Assembly: GCA_026929865.2 (NCBI GenBank)
Contig: CM049410.1
Location: forward strand, 12,042,501 to 12,106,500
DNA from: Hyperoplus lanceolatus
Lineage: Eukaryota; Chordata; Actinopteri; Uranoscopiformes; Ammodytidae
DNA length: 64,000 nt
Direction of reading: 5' to 3'
Part shown: piece after piece, positions 2,824 through 61,609 of the stretch
How positions within the stretch are numbered: the stretch's first letter is position 1
How the letters are laid out: the number at the start of each line of letters is the position of its first letter
The notes under the pieces: model-generated
What the model was told of the DNA's origin: nothing
The model's input: only the letters and a program-made list of their open reading frames with translations
Database searches by the model: none
Position numbers and translations under genes: made by a program

Positions 2824-3775
2824 GTGACACTGACACCGTTTGCATTTTCCTTATATTCTCAAAATGTCTCTTTGTTTTTCCATCCATCTGAACCTTACAT
2901 GTTTCCCTCACCATTCTATAACACGATTTGTTTTCTCTATGCGTTGTTTCAGCCTAAGCGAGACAGAGATAAAATTTTTTAGAGTAATATAAAAGCGCAT
3001 GTGGAGGACAAAGATGATGAAATATAACAGCTCTTTTTTCTCCATCTGTCACTGTCACAGACTCGACATGCGTCTCTGTGTAATGATTCCTTTTTGAAAA
3101 ACGTGTGTTTTACCAGGGAAATTTCACTTATTTATGTATTCCCTCAACTGCCTTCATTTTTTATGCAATCGCTGATGCAATACACAGAGTTGTTGATGGT
3201 GCAATGTAAATTGTTTTATTTTCTCACATGGCTTACTGAAGCAAATGGCCAGTTCAATTATTTTACATAGCAACGACACACAAACTCCTAAAGCATGCTT
3301 TTACTGTAATCGGAATAATTTTTTGTTCTTAGGTTTATGGGTATTGTTTCTGTTAGATGCACCAAAGTAAACCTGTTCAGCATGTGTTCCGTGCAATCTT
3401 CTTCATTATCTTTTTTTTTGTCTTTGTTTATGCTATTTTATTTGTTTTTCTCATTCTTTTATGGCCGTGACTATCAAGCCTGTCACTTTGCCCAAACTTC
3501 AGCTCTCAATTGCCGCTCTGAACGAAATAAATCAGGAGTACTGACTTAATCTGAATGCAACACCTTGTCATAAAGACGCTGATGGTGCAACTTCGTTTTA
3601 AATTAGATCAGATGTTAAGGCAAAGTGTTCCTGCTGGTTGAAGACAATCTGACTGACACAAGTGAAGTCAAAGACCTGCAACTTCATATACTGTTTAGGC
3701 ATTAAGCAGTTGTTCCTCTGAAACAACAGTAAAATATGTAAATCTATTCGTTAACGGGACAAGTGGTCTGGTCAT

Positions 3776-4712
3776 TTAAAGCCACTATGAGTAACATGGC
3801 ACGTTGGCGTCCCCTTTGGACAAAAGCGGTAGTATTTTTACGACGCCCGTTGTCGCAAAGCTGTTTACTAGCGCGTGCCAGGCGCGTGAGTGTGAACTGA
3901 GAAGGGAGCAATATAGTGCATGTCCGTGTGTTGAAAGTGTGAGGACTCTTTTCGGCTCCGTGAGAGTGGTTTTGACACTGCATGAACTAATGCCAGTCAC
4001 TGCCACACGCACCTGATTGCAATGCTGATTGCTAACTACTCTCTCTCACAGAGCTGAAAGATTAGCCTACGTGTCCGACTCCTCACAGAAAGCGAATGAA
4101 CGATAGACGGCAGTTAGTATGGATCACGATGAGGTAATGTGTTTGTGTTGTTGATGTAAATAATGACTATTTCAGATAATGGTTATCTGATGATGGTGAA
4201 GCAAAGCAAACTTTGTGTTAGTACCAACCGCTCATTCATTTAGGAGTAAACACTGCAGTCTAGTTTCGCTCTTGTGAAATTGTATACACGTTGCTTGGCA
4301 ACACCCTCGTCCCCCCGTAGCCTATATCACTCTCCCTTTTAGCTTTTCTTCATTGCATTTTCTTTTTTTCTTTGATGGTTCAGCCCCGTTATCAGTCATT
4401 ATGACGACAAATAACTGTATCAAACAAGGCTCCCGCTCCCCTTCCCTCACCTGGAGTGATAGGCTTCTCAATTCACGTTGCTGCGCCACACTGAAATCTG
4501 CGACCAATACGGATATATGACCATAGAGCTTGCACGAGCGAACCGAAAATCGGACTGTGTGTGCGACCAGACCAAAAGCAGTAATAAAAACTATTTAAAA
4601 ACGTCTTTCTTTGCACTGATGGTCTCGTTTGCTGTTAAAGGTAATTTATGATTATCAGAGGAAACATGAGGCTGTTTAAAAGATATTTAAATGTTACTCG
4701 TAGCCGCTTTAA
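3776..4712 (+). mobile_element. TTAA-flanked 929-bp element, copy 1
   Basis: The body, 3780-4708, is bounded by TTAA at 3776-3779 and 4709-4712. Its ends are inverted repeats: AGCCACTATGAGTAACAT at the left and ATGTTACTCGTAGCCGCT at the right. TTAA target duplication is the hallmark of piggyBac-superfamily elements. No intact transposase is present (longest frame about 75 codons), so this looks like a non-autonomous derivative. A second copy lies in nptxr intron 4. Confidence 0.8.
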
Positions 4713-22235: not shown

Positions 22236-38181
<15,946 letters not shown>

Positions 38182-43487: not shown

Positions 43488-43538
43488 CCCCTCATTCTGC
43501 TTTAGTATCAGGCTGGATTCCGACTGAATAACGAGGAC

Positions 43539-43698
43539 ATGCGCGCTGGACAGGGAAAGGAGGTGTTACACCAACTGCCTGCTTCTGATGTTTTGACTCC
43601 ACGATCCCTCAAATATGGTCCTCCTTTTCTAATCGTCAGTTTTTGTGGAAAGGCTTAAAAGTGAGGACATTTTTATTTCTCTCATGACAAAAATTTGA
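43539..43698 (+). promoter_or_regulatory. Short upstream ORFs in the probable nptxr 5' UTR
   Basis: Three ATGs open tiny frames: 43588 (ATG TTT TGA), 43615 (five codons then TAA) and 43684 (four codons then TGA). A longer frame starts at ATG 43539 and ends at a TAA before 43660. All close before the CTG at 43793. The transcription start is unknown, so some may lie outside the mRNA. Confidence 0.4.
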
Positions 43699-43780
43699 CA
43701 CTTTTTTCTTTTTGTTTTGAAGCTTTTGCTTTCTCCTTCTTCTTCTTATCATTATTAGATTTTTCTAATAATCGAGCGCG

Positions 43781-43825
43781 CCCGCCGCCACCCTGAAGTT
43801 CATCGTTATTATCTTGGCCGCCGGG
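43781..43825 (+). promoter_or_regulatory. nptxr: Non-AUG (CUG) start of nptxr in an ideal Kozak context
   Basis: CTG at 43793-43795 is preceded by GCCGCCACC, the optimal initiation context, with A at -3 but A rather than G at +4. An in-frame TAA lies 24 nt upstream at 43769-43771, and no in-frame ATG lies between. The first in-frame ATG, 43826, is codon 12 and would cut off the first part of the membrane anchor. NPTXR of rat is reported to start at CUG, with the same proposed for mouse and human. Confidence 0.85.
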
Positions 43826-46800
43826 ATGGTGGCCTTCATTGGAGCGGTTATCTGCATCATTGCAGCCGTCCACACCGGATCCTCCAGGGCTGCCGCGGCA
43901 CACCAGCATCCAGCGACCGACAACCACTCGCTTTATCCGGACACTGCACCGCAAACCCCCGTGGCCGCAGGAGGAGGCTCCGTGGCCCGGGTCGGATCTC
44001 TGGGCGCTCTCCATGGTTCTGAAACGCCCGACTCGGAGGCGCCCACCTTCAATGTCGGGCTCGGCGGGCTGGACGGGGTCACCGGACTCGCCGGGCACGA
44101 CCCGACGGTCAGCAGGCTCATCTGCACGCCCATCCCCGCCGGCGAGTGCAACCCGAAAAACTTTCAGCAACAAGCGGATGACCCGTCGCTTTACGCGGGC
44201 GAGGACTGGGGCTACCTGCGCACTACCGCGGAGACACTCAGGCAGACTGTGCTGCAGCAGAAGGACCAGATATTAACAGACCAGCGGACCATCAGGGATC
44301 TGACGGGAAAACTAACCGAGTGTGAGAAGGGGCTGGACGGCAAGGGGGGCGCCGCGGGGCTGCTGGGGGGTAAAGAGGAGGAGGAGACGCACCTGGAGCG
44401 GATCATGGTGCGGGACAGCCCCGACAGTGTCCACGTGCTCACCGTCAGGGCCGTGGATGAGCTGGAGCAGGCTATCACACAGCTCAAAGACCGCATAGAG
44501 AAACTGGAGGTAGGTAGCCTACAGAGTGGGAAGAGGAAGAAAAAAAAACACCACTCCACATAAATCATATCTCCTGCAGCATGCAATAACAACTCTACTT
44601 TAGGAGGAATCCCAGAGAGCAGGCTCATGGGATAATAAAAGGACCTCTGTATTATAAGATTGACCGAGATTTGTGTTTCATTGGCCCGATTACAGCTTTG
44701 AATAAGAAGACAGTAACTCTTGGTTACCTGATCATAGTTGAAATCAATGTCTATATTTGTCTCTTCTTCTTTCTGTAGTCCCTTTTAAGGATTTCTGGGC
44801 ACGCATGGCTGGTTTATGCAAGAAAGAGCTTTGTAAATTTTGAATGAGAACAAATGAGATATCCAAAAGGCTTTATGGCTGATATTAGTATAAGACAGTT
44901 GGCCTTTCCCAGTAGCCTAATGGTGTCTAAAAGAAACAACAGAAGACCATCTTTCTTTTTTGTGTGTCTGCATACTTACAATAGGCTATGAGCAATTAAT
45001 GTGATTCAATTTCGAGATTTATAATATGATGCTAGCATCAAACACTTAGGGATCTTTGAAAAAAATAACCAGGACTTGGCATCAGTTCATTCCATTGATA
45101 ATACATACATGAATTGGTTGCTAGGTCTGCGACTGTAATGGCACCAAGATGACAGATTGAGTTTTAGAATGAAAATAAAGAAAGGTGAAAAGTGAGGTAG
45201 GGAAACAGAGAGGAACTGAGGGAGGGGGGGGGGGGTAAGGACACAGAGGTGGGGGAGGAGAAGAGAATATAGCCTACTACAGAGAAACACAAGTGCCCCT
45301 TTATCTGACCAGAATCCGATGATGTATAACCTGATTTTTGGCTGAAGAAATCCCATACATCATTTATGAGGTGCCCATATAGTATGTGTGGAAAGTAGAG
45401 CACCACTAAATGTGCCTCTCTCTGCGGTGATAGTATTCCTATTATCACTGGTTGGCAGTTTATGTAGGACATGTCTGCACGGGTCATTTTTTTTGTGCAG
45501 ATTCTGCATACTTTGTCTTTGTTCCAACAGTTGGCAGCGTCAAATGAAAAACACCAGAAAGCAGAGAATAACAGAATATGAGAAATCAATGTCAAAGCAA
45601 AAGCATAATCCTCATAGCGAGGGTGTTTTTTTCTCACCCCCCCCCACACACACACACACACACTCTCTCTCTTCTTCTTTTTACCATCCGTGTCATGCTT
45701 CCGTATACAGCAGGATCTTGGCCTACTTCAGTAGCGGCACAGTGTGGTGTTTACATCAGATCCTGTGTGCTGGCAATGGTGAAACTCTACAAGAAAGAGC
45801 ATTCATTTGGGGAATACTATAGGGTCAGGTAACAGTATTGAATTCTTTGCCTCTGTTGGCTGATCATGCATCACTTCACATCTGCTCAGGCATGCGAGGT
45901 AAACAATGTGATACGGTTGTTGCAAATGGTGTCGGCTGCTTGTGCGGTCACTGCAAAGTTGTTCACTTTCTATCTATAGTTGGTAATACTGCGATCTCTC
46001 AGCAGTTTGAGCAGTTGTGACTCTTTTTATTTGCAGCTATTACTTCCATTATAACTATAGAGGCTCAGTGAAAAGGAGCACTTTGCAATATCATGCTGAT
46101 CCAGGTCCAGTGTGGTGATCCTCGGCACTATGTTTTACCTTTAGTACAGGCTGAGTTTTATAATGGGAGTGCCACTGTCTTCTAACTTGTATGCTTTGTG
46201 TTTTTTTTAACCATTTCAGTATCATGTATTTCATTGATCAAATGAGAGAATAGAGGCATCCGTTGTCATGCAGTTTTCTTACTGAAGGGTGTAAACCAAC
46301 CATAGTATTTTTCATGTTCATATTGGCACTGAAATATTGACATTTATGAATCTTGAATTATTTATGGCGGAAAACAAACAAACAAATGCAGACATATCAA
46401 GTCATGAAGTTGTATGACTGGATATATTACTACCAAAGAGCAAACTAAATTCCACAAGATTACAGCCTAGTACATCAGGTACTGAAAGCCATGCTTGATT
46501 CTTATGTCAAAATGTAACTTCCTATATGTCCCTCGATTCAAAGTGATACTAGAAAAGGTACACAGAGGTTTACATTGTAATTCACTTCCCCTATTTGTAT
46601 CAATATACTATTATAGCATATAGAGTACAGTGCTGCACATTTGCTTCATGTATTTTTCATGTACTGTGTATGTTTCTTCTAGAATCTATATAACTCCTTC
46701 ATATTGTCTATGTATTTCTAATGCATACTGTTGAACAATATGCTTGGTGGATGTACTTGACCACACAGGTATTGGAAGTCTTGCAGAGTCAGAGTATTTC

Positions 46801-49800
46801 CTACATCTCTCCCCCTGTGGCATTGCTGTTTAATTCAGTGAACCTTAACACAGCTGTGCCGTACAATTGGTTGTTGACTGAAATAGTTTTTGTTCTCTTT
46901 GCTTCCTTGTCTGACTATATGATTTGTTGTGTAATCCCCTCCATAATTGGAACAAAGCCCCATAGACATGAACTGTTCATACCTAAATCAGACTTTTCTC
47001 TTCTCCTTTCTACCCTTGCATTAGTCATGCCACATTCACCCACCTTGCCTCGAGTGAACGTCGATAGTTAGCCTGCTATCGGTTTATGAATGTGTGTGTG
47101 AATGGTAACGTGGGAAAGGAAAACAGGTCTCCCTTGCAAAAGAGTCTTCGGTCTCAATGGGATTTACCTGTATAAATAAAGGTTAAAAAAAAATGTTGCA
47201 AAAGCATGCAAATGCTCTAAGGAGTAGCTACAGTGGGGTAATATTGAGTGAATATAAGGGCGAAAACCCAGCAACTTCAAAGGACAAGTTTGTACATTTT
47301 GAAATTATGAGTACCTGCTTACTAGGTGAGCATATTTATACCACTCCAATACCCGTCTGTTAAGTATGCAGCTATATCCAGTTTGTTTAGCTTAGCATTA
47401 AGACTGGAAAAAAGATTCCCTGGCTATGTTTAAAGGCATTACCAGCACGTATAGTGTTCACTTAAGATCCTGGTATATCTCGTTTGACTAATATGTAGAA
47501 ACAAAAAGTGTGTTAATGACAATAAGTTGGTTTTATGGACATTGATTTGTTGAAATACGACATTTTGTCGTTTCATGGTATTATTTCTTGGCTGCAAAGT
47601 CAAATATGTAACTATTCTTTAAAGGATGAAACATTACATTGTCTATGGCAAGATGGAACCTTATCCAATAATGTGTCCCTACTGTGTGATGTAATGCTTA
47701 ACACATATAAATGATTAAATGGGTATAATAACGTTACCTACATAAGCATGTATCAACCGACATAATGTTGAGAATCACTGCAGCTGGTGCGTACTTTCTC
47801 ACAAAGAAGAACATACAGTACACTATAACCTTAAAATGCAAGTCTGTAATACTCGCACTGTGAAATAGTGTTCAACCACCTCTCCCTCCTCCACAGTCAG
47901 ACATTGGGCCATTTCCTCACAACCAGACGGACAGCGGTGGTGCCTCAGGAGTACCAGGGGAAGGCGGCCCAGAAAGGTTAGCCGATCCTGGGCACAGGGC
48001 TGGTGCTGAGCGGCCCTGGAGGATGGAAGACTTGGAGGGGGAGCTGGAGAGGAAGGTGGAGCTGCTGGACAAAGAGAGAAAAGCCTTGAGGCTGGAAACA
48101 GAGAAACACAGACAGGAGATCGACCGGGGCATCAATAAACTACACCACAGAGTCTCAGGACTGGAGGAAGGTAGGGCATCAACACACAAGGCAGGAAAAT
48201 AAATACAGAGTGAGAAAGTGTGTGTGTGCATGTGTGGGCAAATCCTAATTTTATAAATGAATGAGAGAAATTATAAGTGACTGAATAATGGCTACAGATT
48301 GACGTCTCAAGTAGTCACTAATTACGAGACATAATCTGACATTAAAGTTACCTCAGATCTTTCATTTTTTGTACTGTGTTCATCACATCAAACCATGGAG
48401 GTACTTCAAGATGAATAAATAATGTTTAACTTATGTAAAAGGAAAAACATCAGAAAGACTATGAAATCCTCGCCTTGCTTCAAAAAACCTAGAAAAGCCT
48501 TGATCTGATTGTTTTGATGGGGGAAAAAAGTAGGGCTTGTTTTGATCCTCTTGCCAGATCCACCATATGATGTACAGTATATGCTTCATTCATTTGTCAT
48601 TGCATTCTCTATCACTTCTTTTCTCAGGCATCTCGGGGCATTCCTTCCCAGAGGGCTACAGGCTGTCATTCCCGACTCGGACCAACTACATGTACGCTGT
48701 GGTGAAGCATTCAGTCCCCACACTGCGGGCCTTCACCGTGTGCCTGTGGCTGAGGCCATCCGAGGGAGGGATCGGCACGCCCGTGTCCTACGCCGTTACC
48801 GAGCAACCCAACGAACTGGTGCTGATGCAAGGCCTGCACACCCCCACTGAGCTGCTCATCAATGACAAGGTGCTGTATCCGTCTACATATACAATGTACA
48901 TACTGTATGTCTCGGAGCTGTTGAGTACACCACCATGGAGGTGCAATTGATGTATGTAATGGGTCATATTTCAAACTGTTTATTGATTGGATTCTCAACA
49001 TGTGTTAAATTAGTGTCTCTTAAGAGTCTGTACCGAGTGAATCATTACGAACTGTTTTTGAATTGGTCAAGATGCTTCATACAATGTATGCAAATCTATT
49101 TATTTTTTCAGACATCTGCACCATAGTGGCATACATTCATATATTCATTAATATGCAGCATATCAAACACCATTTGGCAATTGCTCTATATGTGAATTAT
49201 TGCTTAAAGATGAAGATTTACTTGTAGTGTGGGAGTAATGAGTTTGGGGAGCCTGTCTATCTATGCAAATATATATATATATATCAGATAAATCAATGGG
49301 ATTTTTTTCAGCCTGTGTCAATATGTTTGTGTTATTGATGTGAAAAACAAAACAAAAACCTTGTAGAATCTGTTAATCATATGTAATTGTGCAGCCATAG
49401 CAAGCCGCTTTGTGTTCTCAAAATCCTTCAAAAGTTTTATTCAATAACATTGCAGTGCAGTTTAATTAAAACATGACAGGATGAAAAGGTTGCATCTCAA
49501 ATGCAGTGCTCACTCCCTCGCAACAATCTTGGAAAGACATACTGATGTGGGAGACTTGATGCAAAAGGGTGTCTTTGTTTCACCACTGCTTTCTGCCTGG
49601 CTGGCCTGCTTTTTGAAAATGATATCAGCATGACGTATAAGATCTATTACAGGAGAAATAGTCCACTGTATTTGCATACAAATAAGCAGAACACATCACA
49701 CGAGCCTTGACGACATTGCATGGCCTTGTAGTGAAGTGGAGTGACTTTGGGTATAATTCACTGAAGTCATTGCGGTAATAGATGCCTGCAGGGGAACGTT

Positions 49801-52312
49801 ATGTGTCCTTGGAGATAGCACAATGTCTTTGAGGCTGAATAAAAGACAGCTTTCGAACTCCTAAGACACAATAGAGACAGGAGATGTCAAATAGCTCGTC
49901 TTACCTTCAAGTGGCTGACACTCAAAAACATTGCAATAAAAACATTGTCTTCATTTGAACTGCCCTTTTGCTCTCCTGTGCTCTATAGGTGGCACAGTTG
50001 CCCCTAAACCTCTCCAGAGGCAGCTGGCAGCACATCTGTGTGAGCTGGAGCCAAAAAGGAGGAGCCTGGCAGGCCTATCAGGGGGGAAAGCTGAGGGGCG
50101 AGGGTCACGCATTGGCCACTGGACATCACGTCAGACCCGGAGGAGTGCTAGTACTGGGACAGGAGCAGGTAAATGCAGGAACCAAGGAATGAAAGACTGA
50201 ACCAATGAAGAGACTTAACTGATTAGTGGCAGGCATACGGCTGGCCTCTCAGACCAGTGCTGACTACAGTGCAGCAAGAAAATACTGTAGTAGTTCACCA
50301 CTCCAACTGTTGGCTTATTCATCTAATGACCGCTCCATGGGTGGAAAAAAAAAGTTTGGACATACTGTTAGCCAAAGTTTTGAAGTGGTGTGCTTTGTTG
50401 TTGTGCCGGTAGGATAAGATGTGTTGTGGGTTTGTTCGTGTGTGAAAATTCGGCACTCTTACCAAAGGCAGCAAAAAAAAAAGGAAGCTGAGCCGAGCTG
50501 GATGTGTACGAAAGTAAAATATACGGGCAGGCCAGAGTAATTCAAATATCTACTATTCGTTGATTATGTGCAGAAGCTTCCTTTTTTCTGCTCGGGGGAA
50601 AATGGCTGGATGGTAGACACTTTCCAGCGTTATTGGGTGTAATTATGCATTGGCACGAGACCAGCTGGGGATGAATAAAGTACTATATTTGCAAGATAAC
50701 CAGCTGCTACCTACAAGCCAACTCTGCATCATTAGGAGTGCTATACAGCACTTTGTGATCATCGCTTTTAGATCAGGACAGGAGCCCACCACGGAGCTCC
50801 GCGGAGTGAGACGCAGATTAGCTCCCATTAGCACTGATATTTAAAGCCACTACGAGTAACATGGCACGTTGGCGTCCCCTTTGGACAAAAGCGGTAGTAT
50901 TTTTACGACGTCCGCTGTCGCAAAGCTGTTTACTAGCGCGTGCCAGGCGCGTGAGTGTGAACTGAGAAGGGAGCAATATAGTGCATGTCCGTGTGTTGAA
51001 AGTGTGAGGACTCTTTTCGGCTCCGTGAGAGTGGTTTTGACACTGCATCAACTAATGCCAGTCACTGCCACACGCACCTGATTGCAATGCTGATTGCTAA
51101 CTACTCTCTCTCACAGAGCTGAAAGATTAGCCTACGTGTCCGACTCCTCACAGAAAGCGAATGAACGATAGACGGCAGTTAGTATGGATCACGATGAGGT
51201 AATGTGTTTGTGTTGTTGATGTAAATAATGACTATTTCAGATAATGGTTATCTGATGATGGTGAAGCAAAGCAAACTTTGTGTTAGTACCAACCGCTCAT
51301 TCATTTAGGAGTAAACACTGCAGTCTAGTTTCGCTCTCGTGAAATTGTATGCACGTTGCTTGGCAACTCCCTCGTCCCCCCGTAGCCTATATCACTCTCC
51401 CTTTTAGCTTTTCTTCATTGTATTTTCTTTTTTTTTCTTTGATGGTTCAGCCCCGTTATCAGTCATTATGATGACAAATAACTGTATCAAACAAGGCTCC
51501 CGCTCCCCTTCCCTCACCTGGAGGGATATGCTTCTCAATTCACGTTGCTGCGCCACACTGAAATCTGCGACCAATACGGTTATGTGACCATAGAGCTTGC
51601 ACGAGCAAACCGAAAATCGGACTGGGTGTGCGACCAGACCAAAAGCAGTAATAAAAACTATTTTAAAATGTCTTTCTTTGCACTGATGGTCTCGTTTGCT
51701 GTTAAAGGTAATTTAAGATTATCAGAGGAAACATGAGGCTGTTTAAAAGATATTTAAATGTTACTCATAGCCGCTTTAACTCTAGCATATCTCTAGTCGC
51801 TGTTCATCAAGCCACCTACTGGATCTATTTGGAACTGCAGAAAAACACAACTAATTCTTGCTTAACATTGGAATTAATAATGTGTTTTTTTTAAGTTAAA
51901 ACAACAAGTATTCAAATAATCGTTGGGAAAAACCAAGGAGTATTCTTAGCCTGTTGAATGGTATTCAGGACAACCCTAACAAGTGTTTTTTTTAGCTTTC
52001 AACCACGTCCACATGGCCCCTTTTCAAGCTTTTTATCTCCGTTAATCCATCTGACTTTAGTCCTTCTTTCTTTCTGTCTAGGATTCCCTTGGGGGAGGTT
52101 TTGACTCAACCCAGGCCCTTGTTGGAGAGTTGTCCCAGGTTGGTCTTTGGGAGCGGGTCCTGTCTGCTAGCCAGGTGGCTAGCCTGGCTCGCTGTGGCAA
52201 AGTCACCCAGGGCAGCGTGGCCCCCTGGACCGAGAACGGGGTTGACGTTTACGGTGGAGCCACCAAAGACCCCGGGGAGCCCTGTAGTAAACACAACAGG
52301 AATTCTCAGTGA
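43793..52312 (+). CDS. nptxr: Neuronal pentraxin receptor, five exons, CUG start
   Basis: Type II membrane pentraxin of neurons that clusters with secreted neuronal pentraxins and AMPA receptors at synapses. Coding exons are 43793-44509, 47897-48170, 48628-48869, 49989-50168 and 52082-52312; all introns are GT-AG and phases agree. The total is 1644 nt, 547 aa plus TGA, against 500 in human. The N-terminus, read from CTG 43793, gives a hydrophobic anchor at residues 3-26 (FIVIILAAGMVAFIGAVICI), nearly identical to the mammalian NPTXR anchor. NPTX1 and NPTX2 have cleaved signal peptides instead, which identifies the paralogue. Next come a linker with CTP, a coiled coil (LRQTVLQQKDQI, IRDLTGKLTECEKG) and a second helical part in exon 2. 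The pentraxin domain is about 338-545: cysteine pair C369/C428, signature HICVSW at 426-431, and the Ca2+ ligand set E470, Q471, D472, Q482 (GQEQ then D). The signature's last position is Q rather than S/T. GVDVYGGATK lies near the end. Confidence 0.95.
44510..47896 (+). other. nptxr intron 1
   Basis: Starts GTAGGT and ends CTCCTCCACAG. It holds short C/G and CA runs near 45228-45240 and 45645-45662 and a LINE-like tail at 47130-47192. No other exon was recognised. Confidence 0.7.
47130..47192 (+). mobile_element. LINE-type 3' tail of a second family
   Basis: CTCAATGGGATTTACCTGTA then TAAATAAAGGTT and an A run, a common 3' end of 5'-truncated fish LINEs, distinct from the tail at 12256, 32330, 34741 and 59240. 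Confidence 0.4.
50841..51779 (+). mobile_element. TTAA-flanked 931-bp element, copy 2 (nptxr intron 4)
   Basis: The body, 50845-51775, lies in the same orientation as the copy at 3780-4708 and differs by roughly 20 substitutions and small indels by eye (about 98% identical). TTAA is present at 50841-50844 and 51776-51779. The flanking sequences of the two copies are unrelated, so this is transposition rather than a segmental duplication. Confidence 0.82.
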
Positions 52313-60925: not shown

Positions 60926-61609
60926 TATACTCAACAAAAATATAAACGCAACACTTTTGTTTTTGCTCCCATTTTTCATGAGATGGACTTAAAGATCTAA
61001 TATTCATTCCAGATACACAATTGTACCATTTCTCTCAAACATTGTTCACAAATCTGTCTAAATGTGTGTTAGTGAGAACTTCTGCTTTGCTGAGATAATC
61101 CATCCCACCTCACAGGTGTGCCACATCAAGATGCTGATCTGATCAGTGCAACACATCTTCTTCGCATAGAGTTTATCAGATTGTCAATTGTGGCCTGTGG
61201 AATGTTGTTCCACTCCTCTTGAATGGCTGTGCGAAGTTGCTGGAGACGGCTTATGGTGGAGAAATGAACATTCAATGCACGAGCAACAGATCTGGTTGAC
61301 ATTCCTGCTGTCAGCATGCCAATTGCACGCTCCCTCAATGCTTGTGGCATTTTGCTGTGAGTCTAAGGCACACCTGTGCACTAATCATGATGTCAGATCA
61401 GCATCTTGATGTGGCACACCTGTGAGGTGGGATGGATTATCTCAGCAAAGCAGAAGTGCTCACTATCACACATTTAGACAGATTTGTGAACAATGTTTGA
61501 GATAAATGGTACAATTGTGTATCTGGAATGAATTTTAGATCTTTAAGTCCATCTCATGAAAAATGGGAGCAAAAACAAAAGTGTTGCGTTTATATTTTTG
61601 TTGAGTGTA
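60926..61609 (-). mobile_element. Tc1/mariner-like element, 680 bp, internally deleted
   Basis: The body, 60928-61607, has inverted repeats of about 210 bp with outer ends (T/C)ACTCAACAAAAATATAAA and is flanked by TA on both sides. The ends and the fused transposase frame identify a Tc1-like family widespread in fish. Between the inverted repeats only the two ends of the transposase gene remain. Confidence 0.88.
61126..61350 (-). pseudogene. Tc1-like transposase remnant, N-terminus fused to C-terminus
   Basis: The 74-codon frame starts MPQALRERAIGMLTAGMSTR and SVARALNVHFSTISRLQ, the N-terminal helix-turn-helix of Tc1-like transposases. It then jumps to LRTAIQEEWNNIPQATIDNL and INSMRRRC, their C-terminal end. 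The DD(E/D) catalytic core, normally about 270 residues, is absent, so it cannot transpose itself. Confidence 0.85.

Follow-up and report, generated by a model that had tools for sequence, protein, structure and literature searches.

The question that this locus raises is where the protein of a fish gene begins. The window (C16:12042501-12106500, the whole 64-kb stretch of DNA that was analysed, taken from an assembly of 807 Mb and 527 contigs) contains a gene for the neuronal pentraxin receptor (nptxr), and an ATG-based annotation would truncate its protein inside the membrane anchor. An earlier note on this DNA had proposed CUG initiation at a CTG codon at position 43793. Our analysis strongly supports this proposal, as a second nptxr copy of the same genome, on contig C5, has an ATG at the same codon and codons 2 to 11 are conserved between both copies. 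We estimate at roughly 0.86 the probability that nptxr of the window starts its protein at this CUG, with a probable leak to the AUG at codon 12 (AUG12). The second copy, with its plain ATG at the CUG codon, supports the CUG reading and at the same time limits the claim of conservation.

By its homologies, the window gene is the neuronal pentraxin receptor, and it is open in five exons (Table 1). The closest solved structures to the pentraxin part were NPTX2 (E value of 2.3e-74) and NPTX1 (2.5e-70), followed by a SAP-like pentraxin (4.3e-27) and PTX3, and the Pfam family Pentaxin was matched by both exon 4 and exon 5. These last two exons have clean acceptors and a frame without stop until the end of exon 5. 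For the homologous core of exon 2, tblastn gave matches at an E value below 0.05 in three of the five other neuronal pentraxin genes of the genome, and tblastn matches to exon 3 were found in all five. The N-terminal hydrophobic stretch comprises 24 residues, with a best 19-residue Kyte-Doolittle mean of 3.00, and the mammalian anchor motif, in the form quoted by the earlier note (KFxxxxLAAGMxAFxGAVICII), fits residues 2 to 23 of the window protein, as had been claimed. A search of PDB sequences with exon 1 gave no match at E values up to 1, and the whole window gave no Rfam match at the gathering score. Viral and prokaryote contigs yielded 117 and 597 pattern matches, respectively, with no confirmed relative of the window gene among them, as expected.

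The end of the pentraxin domain was also matched elsewhere in the genome. The unplaced contig C68 has at least six matches that score near-identically and lie about 5.7 kb apart where they are neighbours, and three similar ones occur at C13:28.27-28.76 Mb, with one TAG inside each matched frame. They may represent CRP/SAP-type genes that were recently expanded in tandem. Within the window, two near-identical open frames on the minus strand (3747-3986 and 50818-51051, the second between nptxr exons 4 and 5) are probably copies of an interspersed repeat, and a transposase-like helix-turn-helix remnant (Pfam HTH_38, with a weak Sleeping Beauty HTH match) was found at 61129-61362, also on the minus strand.

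Table 1. Features of the nptxr locus, in positions of the window.
Feature	Positions	Strand	Remarks
AUG mini-ORF nearest to the CTG on its 5' side (ATG, three codons, stop)	43684..43698	+	Present only if the leader reaches so far
Strong acceptor-like AG	43721..43722	+	Score 10.8; candidate junction of a non-coding leader exon
TAA closing the frame upstream of the CTG	43769..43771	+	In-frame, 24 nt 5' of the CTG
GCCGCCACC, optimal upstream context of the CTG	43784..43792	+	Sole occurrence in the window
CTG, proposed codon 1	43793..43795	+	Read directly; ATG at the corresponding codon of the C5 paralog
Codons 2-11, initial segment of the membrane anchor	43796..43825	+	Coding only if initiation is upstream of ATG12; BLOSUM62 score of 34 against C5
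ATG, codon 12, first in-frame AUG, context GCCGGGATGG	43826..43828	+	Possible second start via leaky scanning
nptxr exon 1, coding part	43793..44509	+	Comprises the anchor, the linker and the first part of the coiled coil (239 codons); donor GAG|GTAGGT
nptxr exon 2, coiled-coil part; homologous core with approximate borders	47897..48169	+	tblastn; without stop
nptxr exon 3, where the pentraxin domain begins; homologous core with approximate 5' border	48636..48869	+	Without stop
nptxr exon 4 (pentraxin domain)	49989..50168	+	Acceptor AG|GTGGCA; Pfam Pentaxin; tblastn
nptxr exon 5 including stop codon (end of pentraxin domain)	52082..52312	+	Acceptor AG|GATTCC; Pfam Pentaxin, E value of 2.7e-11

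Direct reading confirmed the anatomy described in the earlier note, with the CTG (followed by AAG TTC ATC), the in-frame TAA 24 nt upstream and, at codon 12, the first ATG of the frame. The seven codons that separate the TAA from the CTG include no near-cognate of ATG, so the CTG is the first possible start of its frame. The TAA closes this frame with no in-frame AUG before the CUG, barring an exon spliced in after the TAA, and no ATG lies between the last upstream mini-ORF and the CTG.

Such an exon had been named in the earlier note as an alternative: spliced in upstream and bringing its own in-frame ATG, it would mean that the CTG was never a start. The region does contain acceptor-like sites, as the AG ending at 43722 scores above all 12 leave-one-out scores of real acceptors (-3.6 to 9.9) and another ending at 43758 reaches a fair 3.5. 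Going by their sequence, these two sites may serve to splice the nptxr leader. However, both lie 5' of the in-frame TAA and therefore cannot rescue the frame. The stretch from the TAA to ATG12 contains only two AGs, with their ends at 43776 and 43798, and their scores of -9.3 and -4.2 fall below those of all 12 real acceptors (the second only just), with a matrix made from these 12 acceptors of the genome that is a weak yardstick, as 41% of the 3,934 AGs in the window equal or exceed the lowest real one. Besides, ATG AAG TTC is uninterrupted in the C5 copy. We thus consider a coding exon farther upstream very improbable and return to the CTG as the start.

The sequence directly 5' of the CTG, GCCGCCACC, occurs once in the 64-kb window, counting both strands, where dinucleotide shuffles lead to an expectation of 0.05, and it was present at least once in 5 of 100 such shuffles, a rarity that is qualified by the G+C-rich nature of the first nptxr exon. 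Its placement is more striking than its count, and one sequence cannot prove selection, so the step from this context to selection for CUG initiation, taken in the earlier note, goes beyond the data. The description of the context as a perfect Kozak sequence is right for the upstream bases and wrong for position +4, which is A and not G. In the window copy, C at -4, A at -3 and A at +5 are favourable, and +6 is G; the A at +4 and the G at +6 both fall inside the codon of the conserved Lys2 (AAG).

In the accessible text of a review (PMC9082881), CUG is described as the most efficient of the near-cognate codons, C or A at -4 is said to favour non-AUG starts, and the best predicted site is given as (C/A)(A/G)(C/A)(A/C/G)CUGGAU, with which all four bases directly 5' of the CTG of the window agree. 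The same text states that a change from G to A at +4 may cut CUG initiation up to tenfold. The full favourable CUG context, including G at +4, is absent from the window copy, and this context is no strict criterion. As +4 is A, the CUG is probably leaky, and AUG12 would be expected to capture many of the ribosomes that pass it.

The best means of telling a used CTG from an accidental one is the comparison with the second nptxr copy. The full-length relative of exon 1 was found at C5 25719074-25719790 on the minus strand, covering residues 1-236 of the 236 in the query, with 51% identity (53% and 44% in alignments that count gaps differently), and the pentraxin exons of the two copies share 128 of 204 residues (63%). 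Four further neuronal pentraxin genes match the exon 1 query only within residues 99-216, and not in the anchor. At the codon where the window reads CTG AAG TTC, the C5 paralog reads ATG AAG TTC, in an ordinary context (ACAGTC) and with an in-frame TAG 111 nt 5' of its ATG. As the paralog has an ATG, nptxr as such can function without a CUG, which is a point against the CUG reading, and the idea of a CUG conserved in fish nptxr at large, put forward in the earlier note, cannot be maintained.

An ATG at codon 1 of the paralog, together with the textbook upstream context, could also be taken to mean that the CTG owes its C to a mistake of the assembly or to a rare allele, the species having an ATG in a near-complete Kozak context; the assembly contains a single match of 100% identity, hence no second haplotype to compare. 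A random error, though, must have struck exactly this base and yielded this letter. Moreover, human, mouse and rat NPTXR are given as CUG-initiated in the accessible part of PMC2396638, where this is attributed to Dodds et al. 1997. We give almost no credence to an error or a rare allele, and the CTG is taken as genuine in what follows.

The likeness between both copies extends through the codons that only an upstream start would translate. Residues 2 to 11 are KFIVIILAAG in the window and KFVVVLVGAG in C5, with K2 and F3 identical, and the differences fall on codon positions 1, 2 and 3 in 4, 1 and 7 of the 10 codons, respectively. The ungapped BLOSUM62 score of 34 for these codons was attained in 4 of 20,000 order shuffles. 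A score of at least 34 was found in 1 of 127,940 ten-codon stretches on both strands of the window, and its value of 45 marks this stretch as codons 2-11 themselves. In the same register, at offsets from -30 to -8, ungapped ten-codon scores ranged from -16 to -1, negative values that are partly due to stops in the window frame, and 7 to 12 of 30 nt were identical. With gapped alignments, evaluated against shuffles that preserve base content only, codons 1-11 of the two copies were equalled by none of 500 shuffles, and the 60 and 150 nt upstream of both starts by 107 and 193 of 500. A gap-rich alignment of 300 nt upstream (window 43497-43787 against C5) was equalled by 8 of 500 mononucleotide shuffles; some leader or promoter likeness may thus exist farther upstream, a point that would speak against the CUG reading and from which we draw no conclusion.

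As judged from these alignments of two copies of one genome, their protein likeness begins at codon 1. Because the likeness at the protein level spans codons 2-11, these codons can be regarded as coding, and, as the frame is closed upstream, the CTG is the start by elimination. Starting at one of the next near-cognates (AAG2, ATC4, ATT6, ATC7 or TTG8) would drop conserved residues, and the retention of Lys2 requires that the start be codon 1. In the mechanism that we propose, scanning ribosomes would initiate the long, membrane-anchored nptxr protein at CUG 43793, helped by the favourable C at -4 and A at -3, with the in-frame TAA shutting off anything farther 5'. The CUG would be read as an initiator methionine, giving a protein that begins M-K-F and carries the full anchor. 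Ribosomes that leak past the CUG, with its A at +4, would proceed to AUG12 and give a second product without the first 11 residues.

AUG12 could instead be the true and only start. The codons upstream of it would then be a relic, and the shortened hydrophobic segment would perhaps act as a signal peptide of a secreted protein, like NPTX1 and NPTX2, which are secreted. AUG12 is the first in-frame AUG, its context GCCGGGATGG is strong, with G at both -3 and +4, and the window copy evolves fast. A start at AUG12 drops 11 codons: besides the initiator and Lys2, the 24-residue hydrophobic stretch loses 9 residues. The resulting form has a best 19-residue Kyte-Doolittle mean of 2.08 versus 3.00 for the CUG form. 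The loss of half the anchor that the earlier note had foreseen for an ATG start is accurate in the 11 codons and overstated in its effect, as a hydrophobic segment would remain. Nevertheless, codons 2-11 still match those of an ATG-started paralog, with the 4/1/7 pattern of differences, where no likeness beyond that of shuffles is left in the 150 nt upstream of the start, and a relic of such age is expected to have decayed. Initiation at AUG12 alone appears improbable to us, and CUG initiation with AUG12 as an additional start is the reading that we retain.

The two copies differ at codon 12 as well: the C5 paralog has TCC (Ser) there and no further in-frame ATG until codon 78. Leaky scanning may therefore yield an additional N-terminus, in the CTG-bearing copy only. 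An internal AUG thus goes with the CUG start and is missing from the AUG-started copy, an association between two fish genes to which the Met of the mammalian motif, as cited by the earlier note, can be added; this is a lead and not a result. One could tentatively propose, as a rather unlikely scenario, that the start sites were split between the nptxr copies after the teleost genome duplication. The window copy, having retained the old CUG and its optimal upstream context together with a strong AUG12, would make, by leaky scanning, a fully anchored form and a shortened, perhaps released one, and the C5 copy, having changed CUG to AUG and lost Met12 and the special context, would make the anchored form alone. 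If this were true, start-codon stringency would govern, in the window copy only, how much of the receptor is anchored relative to the shortened form. Start-codon stringency is controlled by factors such as eIF1 and eIF5.

We do not claim a downstream RNA hairpin that aids the CUG, as the coding part folds no more strongly than its synonymous recodings. A 7-bp stem that overlaps AUG12 appears in short folds, and other pairings win in a 150-nt fold. This region folds better than most shuffles (z of -1.82, with 9 of 200 as good), and the fractions of synonymous recodings that fold as well as the coding sequence after the CUG were 0.10, 0.33 and 0.29 in three spans.

As to how the pair arose, a tree built on the pentraxin exons of the six neuronal-type genes found in this one genome, with a long row for the window gene, placed the window and C5 nptxr copies together with support values of 100/99. 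The CTG-bearing copy (C16:12086293) is the faster-evolving nptxr and the ATG copy (C5:25719790) the slower one, with branch lengths of 0.55 versus 0.11 changes per column in the pentraxin exons. As the pentraxin domain of the window copy evolves fast, relaxed constraint on this copy is possible, which counts against the CUG reading. The same tree paired the genes at C5:6.97 Mb and C16:14.1 Mb (100/99), again linking C5 to C16, and those at C16:6.24 Mb and C17:18.7 Mb (84/86), which provide no such link; in this tree, C16:6.24 Mb and C5:6.97 Mb are not an nptx pair. The nptxr pair was probably left by the teleost genome duplication, an origin that we can only infer because the pairing of C5 with C16 is not shared by all nptx genes. 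A zebrafish nptxrb exists according to the accessible part of PMC9227717, and its name implies an nptxra.

The neighbourhoods of the two copies also differ. For the C5 copy, a CBX7_C match lies 7 kb away (C5:25726778) and a SUN domain lies 0.23 Mb away (C5:25488707), which fits the gene order of human 22q13, which we take to be NPTXR-CBX6-SUN2. The window copy is without such a close neighbour: the nearest CBX7_C match lies about 0.6 Mb from it (C16:11468935), and C16 has a single SUN match, at 4.68 Mb. Within the window, an open frame at 25547-25912 on the minus strand contains a partial SH3 domain (SH3_2, E value of 3.5e-5) and is perhaps an exon of some gene. It had suggested a BAIAP2-type neighbour, a candidate that was dropped, as the IMD-domain matches listed for the genome (at least 24) all lie away from the window and its surroundings.

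The age of the CUG can be approached by parsimony. Mammals and the window copy have CTG and C5 has ATG, so an ancestral CTG requires one change and an ancestral ATG requires two to the same codon. This count uses only three states (mammals, window copy and C5 copy) and does not depend on which of the fish copies is the closer relative of mammalian NPTXR. On these sequences, we judge that the CTG is quite probably ancestral to fish and mammals. The earlier note had dated the CUG to at least the bony vertebrate ancestor, a date that the three states favour and that does not come from a survey of species. If the CUG is ancestral, a non-AUG start would have persisted from the last ancestor shared by fish and mammals, even though a change of one base gives AUG, and one may ask why it was kept. 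The fish pair offers a natural experiment, with CUG and AUG at the same codon in one animal, which lets the purpose of inefficient initiation be tested.

Conserved non-AUG starts have reportedly been treated by Ivanov and colleagues in 2011. In the accessible literature on NPTXR, teleost neuronal pentraxins and non-AUG starts, we found no statement on the start codon of fish nptxr, and NPTXR is not named in the accessible portions of PMC2447302 or PMC9789052. As CUG starts of mammalian NPTXR are already in print, the probable CUG start of the window gene adds another case. Among the systems that can be compared, the C5 paralog resembles the window gene in its identity (51% in exon 1 and 63% in the pentraxin exons) and in K2 and F3, and differs in its ATG start, its ordinary context (ACAGTC), the Ser that replaces Met at codon 12 and its shorter branch. 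Mammalian NPTXR shares with the window gene the gene family, the anchor motif in the form quoted by the earlier note and the CUG start, as far as the accessible part of PMC2396638 reports it; unlike it, the window gene is a fish copy, has A at +4 and coexists with a second, ATG-started copy. VANGL2-Long is likewise a case of a near-cognate start (AUA) reported from zebrafish to human, according to the accessible part of PMC11065751. There, however, the non-AUG start extends a complete AUG-started protein, whereas the CUG of the window would supply the beginning of the membrane anchor itself.
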